DNA of 64,000 bases from Picosynechococcus sp. PCC 7003 (GTDB taxonomy: Bacteria; Cyanobacteriota; Cyanobacteriia; Cyanobacteriales; MRBY01): the NCBI RefSeq assembly GCF_001693255.1, contig NZ_CP016474.1:62001-126000 (forward strand), read 5' to 3'. Positions 33,813 to 34,436 of the stretch are shown in pieces. Below the pieces are notes generated by a model, which saw only the letters and a program-made list of their open reading frames with translations, was not told the DNA's origin and did not search any database. The translations under genes were made by a program, and so were the position numbers. Within the stretch, counting starts at the first letter, position 1. Every line of letters starts with the position of its first letter.

Positions 33813-33936
33813 TAACAAAACACTTGAAAAGTGTATCAAACCTGAACAACAAAAGAATTGGAGGACACTCGGTTCAATTATCAAAATTTTAGGGTGGCGC
33901 GAAAAATCATCTGCCAGCAACAAGGACAATTAATTT

Positions 33937-34360
33937 TTGACACTCCCCTGCCTAAAGGTGAGGGGATTCTTGGTTCAGCGAGTCCACTTACCTAGGATTC
34001 CTTGCGAAGCCCTAACCAGAGGTGGTTCTCTCCCCAAGCGTTACTTCCCCAGTGCCCCTGGGTAGTTGAATTTCTCCAATGTTTGTTTGACTTGAAACCC
34101 TTTGTTTCAAATGCTGGTCGTCTAGTTCCTGCAAGGATTTTACCTATCCACAGGGGGAACCTAGAACAATTGGATAGAACCCGATATCTTTGATTGTCAA
34201 GGTTCAGCGTAGTGCCGTGAGGCTACTGGGTTTTTAAAGCGGTTGATTACCCTCCCCGCTAGAATGCAGTGTAACAAAATGCCACTCGATATTGGCATGC
34301 TTCTTCCCTTTGGTCAGTCGCTCGGCTTATATCCCCGCTCTAAAAGAGGCAGGGTTTTAC
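33937..34360 (-). mobile_element. IS200/IS605-family relic with tnpB 3' end and omega-RNA-like right end
   Basis: A ~420-base element, leftward. Its left end is a hairpin at 34333-34354 (CCCCGCTCT/AGAGGCAGGG); its right end is a hairpin at 33944-33964 (CCCCTGCC/GGTGAGGGG) followed by gtgtcaa. Such terminal hairpins are the mark of IS200/IS605 elements. The inner part keeps the decayed end of tnpB. The TnpB guide RNA (omega RNA) is known to come from the tnpB 3' end plus right end, so the part 33937-34150 could still make an orphan RNA. The bulk of tnpB and any tnpA are lost. Borders are approximate. Confidence 0.6.
33992..34190 (-). pseudogene. tnpB: tnpB C-terminal remnant
   Basis: Leftward translation down to the TAG at 33994-33992 gives about 66 residues ending STTQGHWGSNAWGENHLW and then LGLRKES. 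Translation in the neighbouring frame ends VDSLNQESPHL. Both styles are typical of the ends of cyanobacterial TnpB (RNA-guided nuclease) reading frames. No RuvC motif or zinc finger is left, so no protein function is expected. The call depends on remembered tnpB end patterns. Confidence 0.5.
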
Positions 34361-34436
34361 GCCGACTTTCCGATAAAAATTTTTAAACAGTTTTTTGATT
34401 CATCCGTACAATGGCAGTAGATTTCACGCACAAACG

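Follow-up and report, generated by a model that had tools for sequence, protein, structure and literature searches.

Insertion of IS605-type elements takes place 3′ of a short motif, next to which TnpB cuts DNA matching a guide derived from the flank. TnpB is regarded as the ancestor of Cas12, and the source of its guide RNA is normally its own mRNA. The stand-alone IscB omega RNAs of the 2021 IscB/OMEGA work are reportedly guide RNAs without an adjoining nuclease gene, as in the element described here; however, their guide is said to lie at the 5′ end of the RNA, and the RNA is said to be unrelated to that of our element.

In this study, we analysed a window of 64,000 nucleotides (G000:C1:62001-126000) of the 3.35-Mb genome of Picosynechococcus sp. 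PCC 7003, and it contains a short element that invites comparison with several described systems. Like the omega RNA of ISDra2-type TnpB, the predicted RNA has a scaffold of ~116-145 nt whose terminus is the right end and beyond which the guide lies, and its tnpB-linked relatives overlap the 3′ end of tnpB; unlike it, the element lacks tnpB and carries a promoter-like box of its own and an extra 5′ domain of ~142 nt. The palindrome-associated transposable elements (PATEs) of Haloquadratum are likewise transposase-free and of the IS605 type, have hairpins at their ends and do not duplicate the target (PMC3119063), but the accessible part of that source describes them as fused ends or core deletions, whereas our element has a long structured RNA that different genera have conserved. 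ORF-less IStrons, according to the accessible text of PMC4227781, resemble our element in being RNA elements that lack an ORF and have ends of the IS605 or IS607 type; they differ in that our element has no group I intron match and has a promoter-like box at its end in place of a 5′ splice site. The RAGATH-18 RNA, or IS607 TnpB reRNA, is a guide-RNA scaffold beside TnpB in the 3′ region (PMC11061315, accessible part), and sub-threshold matches to it fall at the homologous place in our element. The initial annotation of this locus had suggested a covariance search with known TnpB omega RNAs, and our Rfam search returned RAGATH-18 (RF03064), which scored 22.2 bits in the window and, in four of 20 relatives, 23.5-25.5 bits against a gathering score of 44.9, so that the element is no member by the Rfam standard. 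In the window stretch and the 20 relatives, the 5′ domain had no Rfam match, and the other matches were obviously due to chance.

Our search of the open-licence literature, judged mainly by titles and the beginnings of abstracts and with the omega symbol unsearchable, found no description of a TnpB guide-RNA element that stands alone, is driven by a promoter of its own and carries a 5′ domain of this kind, which is weak evidence of absence; the accessible part of PMC12558985 does not mention MITE, standalone, non-autonomous, PATE or solo. In its putative function, the element would resemble a TnpB guide RNA that acts in trans from within a PATE-like element, and it bears an additional 5′ domain that has no name.

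Boundaries, copies and insertion site

The initial annotation placed a decayed TnpB element at positions 33937-34360. The start at 33937 is exact, but the left end lies at 34372, and the whole non-autonomous element measures 436 bp (33937-34372, minus strand, as are all features given below; right end 33937). These limits derive from four genome copies and from a seamless empty site in a sister genome, G002. When the joined flanks of the window copy were compared with six genomes of the genus, they matched G002 C1:105623-106127 continuously at 82%, with a seamless joint and TTAT retained. Therefore, the ends are exact and the insertion produced no target duplication. The TTAT to the left of the element (34373-34376) also precedes the left end in L002, L003, L004 and the TnpB element of the sister genome, and we consider it to be the target motif and a candidate TAM. 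A genome search identified three further long copies (98, 93 and 92% identity, E 1.7e-221 to 4.6e-126), which gives four copies of the 436-bp element in its own genome, all with TTAT; the window copy is intergenic.

Besides one stand-alone relative (84%), G002 contains, elsewhere in its genome, a TnpB element (C1:2764356-2765753) with an open frame of 432 codons, and the OrfB_IS605 and TNB domains of its protein were confirmed by Pfam. This sister TnpB element and the window element have in common TTAT, an identical left end of 56 bp (34317-34372) and the terminal 35 nt at the right (35 nt compared by eye); the left-end hairpin, also read by eye, lies at ~34333-34354. Exact insertion next to a short motif, with no duplication of the target, and ends common to a TnpB-encoding element of G002 are features of a non-autonomous IS200/IS605-type element, and the initial description of such an element without tnpB was correct. 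No recognisable protein is encoded in the 436 bp. A TnpB ORF is present neither in the element nor in the displayed flanks of the window copy, so that the tnpB in cis expected of an omega RNA is absent there.

Read in the way of the initial annotation, the locus would be the decayed remnant of a single TnpB element with an omega RNA that happened to survive, and the missing tnpB and the broken frame agree with this reading. However, the locus belongs to a defined element with four copies and an empty site in a sister genome, a family of the same design occurs in at least 53 of 386 cyanobacterial genomes, and the extra 5′ domain is not on the tnpB loci examined. Moreover, among the four own copies and the G002 copy, copy-to-copy identity is 88.8-97.9% in the RNA part compared with 60.6-86.3% in the left end and promoter (104 bp), apart from L001 and L002, in which these 104 bp are identical. 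Because two copies bear the exact left end of the sister TnpB element, this gap may partly stem from left-end swapping with TnpB elements. Related copies, the absence of which the annotation had named as evidence against itself, occur in G002 and across cyanobacteria. We consider decay to be extremely unlikely and, judging from the copies and the empty site, regard the element as an intact, precisely bounded, multicopy and mobile IS200/IS605-type element without a protein gene, not as a relic.

Two RNA domains and a promoter-like box

In addition to the multicopy and mobile state, the initial annotation had missed a second structured RNA domain at 34119-34260 and a promoter-like box. The conserved structured RNA of the element is ~330 nt long and is composed of this 5′ domain of ~142 nt followed by an omega scaffold of 145 nt.

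The scaffold (33937-34081) matches model R1 with 157.8 bits, the copy itself being in the model. R1 was built from stand-alone copies only, and it overlaps the 3′ end of tnpB in all 30 fetched loci of one TnpB clade (35.7-100.1 bits), which are the best-scoring loci and not a random sample; this is the homology expected of an omega-RNA scaffold. The stand-alone nucleotide profile likewise matches the 3′ ends of tnpB genes outside its build (L029, L063, L065, L073, L074 and L077; E 1.3e-8 to 6.5e-17), and at tnpB-linked loci the match is confined to the 3′ part (profile position at least 202), overlapping the tnpB 3′ end. The right-end hairpin (33944-33967; pairs of columns 129-133 with 148-152 of alignment A2) and the tnpB-like 3′ end reported initially are thus real and far above chance, since there are three more genome copies and the profile matches independent tnpB 3′ ends; the initial annotation was also right that the omega-RNA part at the right end survives, and it is whole. 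The likeness to tnpB holds for the RNA and not for the coding frame, which has stops here. Among the stand-alone copies, this frame is open in one of the 92 members of a 97-sequence set that have the AAGAATC anchor and in two of 35 in a mixed alignment. For the TnpB-linked copies, the proportion is 15 of 23, with 11 of 34 lacking the anchor and several loci being broken genes themselves.

In the omega core alignment A2 (42 sequences, 37 pairs), 94.8% of cells are paired, 234 cells have changed on both sides compared with 65.0 in shuffles, and the covariation score is 0.458 compared with 0.166; on all five measures, 0 of 500 shuffles were as high. The layout broadly follows that of the ISDra2 omega RNA, in which positions -3 to -5 form a pseudoknot with -103 to -105 (PMC10097598, accessible part), and the pairs -4/-105 and -5/-104 are possible in 92.6% of cells in our alignment, with no both-side change, i.e., no covariation. 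By homology, the 3′ part is an omega-RNA scaffold; by function, it is a putative omega RNA.

The 5′ domain (34119-34260), which contains pseudoknots, matches model R2 with 154.4 bits at C1:96119-96260 (copy included in the model). According to mutual information in 97 sequences, the top pairs are nearly all Watson-Crick partners. Alignment A1 of this domain (30 sequences, 30 pairs) has 94.0% of cells paired, 129 both-side-changed cells compared with 44.5 in shuffles and a covariation score of 0.380 compared with 0.173; none of 500 shuffles was as high in the score or the both-side count, and five of 500 equalled the count of further pair types. When partners were slid as a control for A1 and A2, pairing fell to 29-46%. 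The first pseudoknot is misaligned in A1 and was therefore tested separately: a helix of at least 5 bp can form in 78 of 92 sequences, compared with a maximum of 56 in 200 partner shuffles. The paired cells contain G-U and A-C at 57:13 and 97:19 in the two alignments, where 105:62 and 162:94 are expected from the columns, and this excess of G-U over A-C indicates that the pairing acts on the minus strand. Both domains covary and thus have the conserved secondary structure that characterises a TnpB omega RNA. The folding energy of the minus strand (33937-34265) is no better than that of shuffles (z -0.40), and that of the plus strand is better than that of the minus strand (z -2.05). Support for the RNA structure is therefore comparative, and single-sequence folding is uninformative or slightly contrary.

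The loops of the 5′ domain are variable, and the domain was not found on the tnpB-linked omega RNAs examined. Additional hairpins occur in two variable RNA loops of L027, L057, L058 and L059. At one locus (L170, G281:C1:2235300-2238300), a tnpB gene encoding 418 aa lies inside the RNA, in the same loop that has 40 extra nucleotides in L027. We considered this locus as an autonomous form of the element and rejected it: the TnpB element concerned is present in at least six copies in G281 (97-100% identity, six candidates scored) and its ends recur at unrelated loci, so that it represents a nested insertion in the 5′-domain loop.

A pseudoknotted domain with variable loops, and a tnpB inside the RNA at the G281 locus, might be expected if the 5′ domain were an intron-like ribozyme and the element ends were splice sites. 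Elements of this kind, with a 5′ group I intron joined to an IS605 or IS607 element, have ORF-less copies in the accessible account of PMC4227781. However, no group I intron was detected even at permissive thresholds (E ≤ 5 in the window stretch, E ≤ 10 in the 20 relatives), the conserved RNA begins downstream of the promoter-like box and not at the left end, the G281 tnpB is a nested insertion, and the window copy is intergenic. We therefore regard an ORF-less IStron as very unlikely.

Just upstream of the RNA lies an extended -10-like box, TGTTACACT (34268-34276), a motif that is enriched at this place in the family and to which the window copy is a weak match. The promoter scan covered 47 non-redundant copies, 42 of which could be anchored. 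A TANNNT box begins within a window of 13 nt that immediately precedes the RNA in 34 of these 42 copies (shuffle mean 13.1, maximum 23 in 500 rounds), compared with 5-11 in other windows, and its extended form TGNTANNNT is found in 17 (shuffle maximum 4). A TTG at -35, spaced by 15-19 nt, occurs in only 16 of the 42, a figure that stands without a control. On the left-end side of L035, L036, L042 and L045, a small divergent ORF of about 31-55 aa starts beside the RNA promoter; its product is weakly similar to ribbon-helix-helix/CopG proteins (best Pfam E 7.5e-5, below the cut-off), and it is possible that it is an autoregulator of the element.

These observations bear on whether the element could be a passive PATE or MITE, in which the ends alone matter, TnpA moves the DNA and the internal RNA is unused by TnpB. 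Transposase-free PATEs of the IS605 type, some of which arose by core deletion, have been described in Haloquadratum (PMC3119063, accessible part), the ends of our element match those of the sister-genome TnpB element, and its own genome has no close TnpB. At the same time, compensatory changes preserve the internal RNA structure throughout the diversity sampled, the left end is less well conserved than the RNA part, and the promoter-like box stands at a fixed place. A passive element is consequently unlikely in our view.

Distribution, would-be guides and candidate partner proteins

The 5′-domain model R2 was found in 53 of 386 genomes and in 30 of 142 genera of Cyanobacteria, which is a lower bound because eight candidates per genome were scored; the R2 matches outside the order are three and weak (E ~1e-5). 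Within the order, some match occurs in 201 of 291 genomes (two candidates per genome scored), and many of these matches cover only the right end or a tnpB 3′ end. Among the fetched loci, 100 full-length matches to the 330-nt interior profile were obtained, 97 of them distinct, a few places having been fetched twice. A pattern scan of named genomes yielded at least 115 stretches, and 77 of the 80 loci compared match the profile, 52 of them nearly in full; the three others are one Anabaena locus, one truncated Crocosphaera locus and one Bacteroidota record. The named hosts include Nostoc, Anabaena, Dolichospermum, Calothrix, Crocosphaera, Microcoleus and Microcystis. Several elements (L080, L084, L092 and L105) have a recurring CTTCGACA(A/G)GCTCAG-like repeat inserted in or near their left-end hairpins.

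Mobile DNA also carries the family. Four plasmid records match, one of which is a TnpB element, and seven records of Nodularia phages match, five over the full length. Phage kac65v151 contains a stand-alone copy (R1 161 bits, R2 133.8 bits) a few kb from a gene, annotated as a transposase, whose product is a TnpB of the same clade as the sister TnpB and 58% identical to it. In this phage (L370, 115682-123993), the copy directly follows a ribonucleotide reductase gene that contains an intein, with the TnpB gene upstream; the related phage kac68v161 (L372) has a TnpB-linked right end only (34 nt match).

The TnpB clade in question (E ≤ 1e-80) is present in 44 of the 53 genomes with the 5′ domain, compared with 34 of the 333 without it, an odds ratio of 43 that is uncorrected for relatedness and transposon load (386 genomes; four and eight candidates per genome scored). 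The remaining nine R2-positive genomes include the genome of the window copy. The initial annotation had proposed that an intact TnpB with a matching right end be sought in this genome; no TnpB of the matching clade was found there at E ≤ 1e-80, despite four element copies, and the best R1 match outside the elements has 27 bits, compared with 143-158 bits for the four copies. Because a close partner TnpB was not found, the element is at present an orphan in its own genome. Its 18 PF07282 (TNB-domain) matches, two of which are halves of one locus, all belong to other groups. Own-genome TnpB loci were tried as cognates and rejected, since nhmmer revealed no common interior except, very weakly, at L022/L023 (16.9 bits), and R1 reached 23.7 bits at L007 and 18.3 bits at L013. 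L022/L023 (C1:2112101-2112294) is a frame-broken tnpB with a right end like that of the element over 36 nt. The same genome has a near-identical family of 455-aa TnpB proteins (L014-L020; at least six full-length copies and one frame of 277 codons), and on contig C3 a TnpB related to this family adjoins a Y1 TnpA. A TnpA with matching ends was not found among the seven loci compared (best 14 nt; L381, L382 and L384 were outside the comparison).

Scaffold identity is 73% among stand-alone copies and 68% among TnpB-linked copies, compared with 58% across the two. The separate grouping of the stand-alone scaffolds indicates an old separate family, not fresh deletions of resident TnpB elements. 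Pairs of stand-alone and TnpB-linked scaffolds from the same genome exceed the expected identity by 2.2 points, which none of 2000 permutations reached; coadaptation within genomes is thus a small effect only.

The would-be guide is the 20 nt directly beyond the right end (33917-33936), by analogy with TnpB omega RNAs (PMC10097598, accessible part) and in view of the distinct right flanks of the family; its original placement leftward of 33937 agrees with that layout. Among 100 loci, 95 right flanks of 20 nt are distinct, and the repeats are due to three places that had been fetched twice and to a set of three orthologous loci. Since every copy necessarily has a right flank, distinct flanks are no proof of guide use. 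They form the pattern expected of a self-aiming mobile element and not of a regulator with a fixed target. For the window copy, one of four guides, a search for TTAT plus the first 12 guide bases with at most two mismatches gave four matches in its own genome, none exact, compared with six for a reversed-pattern control, and there is thus no evidence that this guide has further targets.

The lack of a fixed target also bears on whether the RNA could be a regulator or decoy that binds TnpB to titrate or repress it, or that regulates host genes, instead of guiding cuts to the benefit of the element. The tnpB-linked omega RNAs examined lack the added 5′ domain, some members have the divergent small ORF with its weak likeness to ribbon-helix-helix proteins, and the element is kept in genomes without a detected partner TnpB; all of these observations would suit such a role. 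The 95 distinct flanks argue against it, and no association with host genes was noticed in an unsystematic view of the loci. A regulator or decoy is likewise unlikely.

Proposed mode of action and its implications

We favour, with moderate confidence, the view that this is a protein-free mobile guide-RNA element to which TnpA and TnpB are supplied from elsewhere, the use in trans being what we infer from sequence data. The initial annotation had already raised such use by a TnpB made elsewhere, which we regard as a reasonable suggestion. RNA polymerase would start at the -10-like box and read through the scaffold into the flanking DNA, and the DNA beyond the right end would supply the guide. 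A TnpB made elsewhere, of the clade of the sister TnpB element, would load this RNA and cut TTAT-flanked sites without the element, and repair would thereby restore the element. A TnpA made elsewhere would move it. The 5′ domain probably takes over the protective or processing role that the tnpB mRNA has for an ordinary omega RNA.

More tentatively, and with rather less confidence than the preceding proposal, we suggest a widespread class of elements whose sole gene product would be a promoter-driven guide RNA with a new pseudoknotted 5′ domain, parasitising or cooperating with a resident TnpB in trans. One TnpB might then uphold many elements, each aimed by its own flank, in the chromosomes, plasmids and phages of cyanobacteria.

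If this proves true, the 5′ domain would represent a novel RNA fold joined to a TnpB guide RNA, and in phages the pair of stand-alone RNA and TnpB could exclude rivals that lack the element. Many of the hosts are culturable cyanobacteria, in which RNA sequencing and genetics are feasible. The family would allow the idea of TnpB as a shared resource exploited by protein-free elements to be tested, and, as mobile elements without the protein but with a guide RNA under its own promoter, it would provide a natural example of the separation of nuclease and guide, a step that has been proposed for the origin of separate guide-RNA genes.
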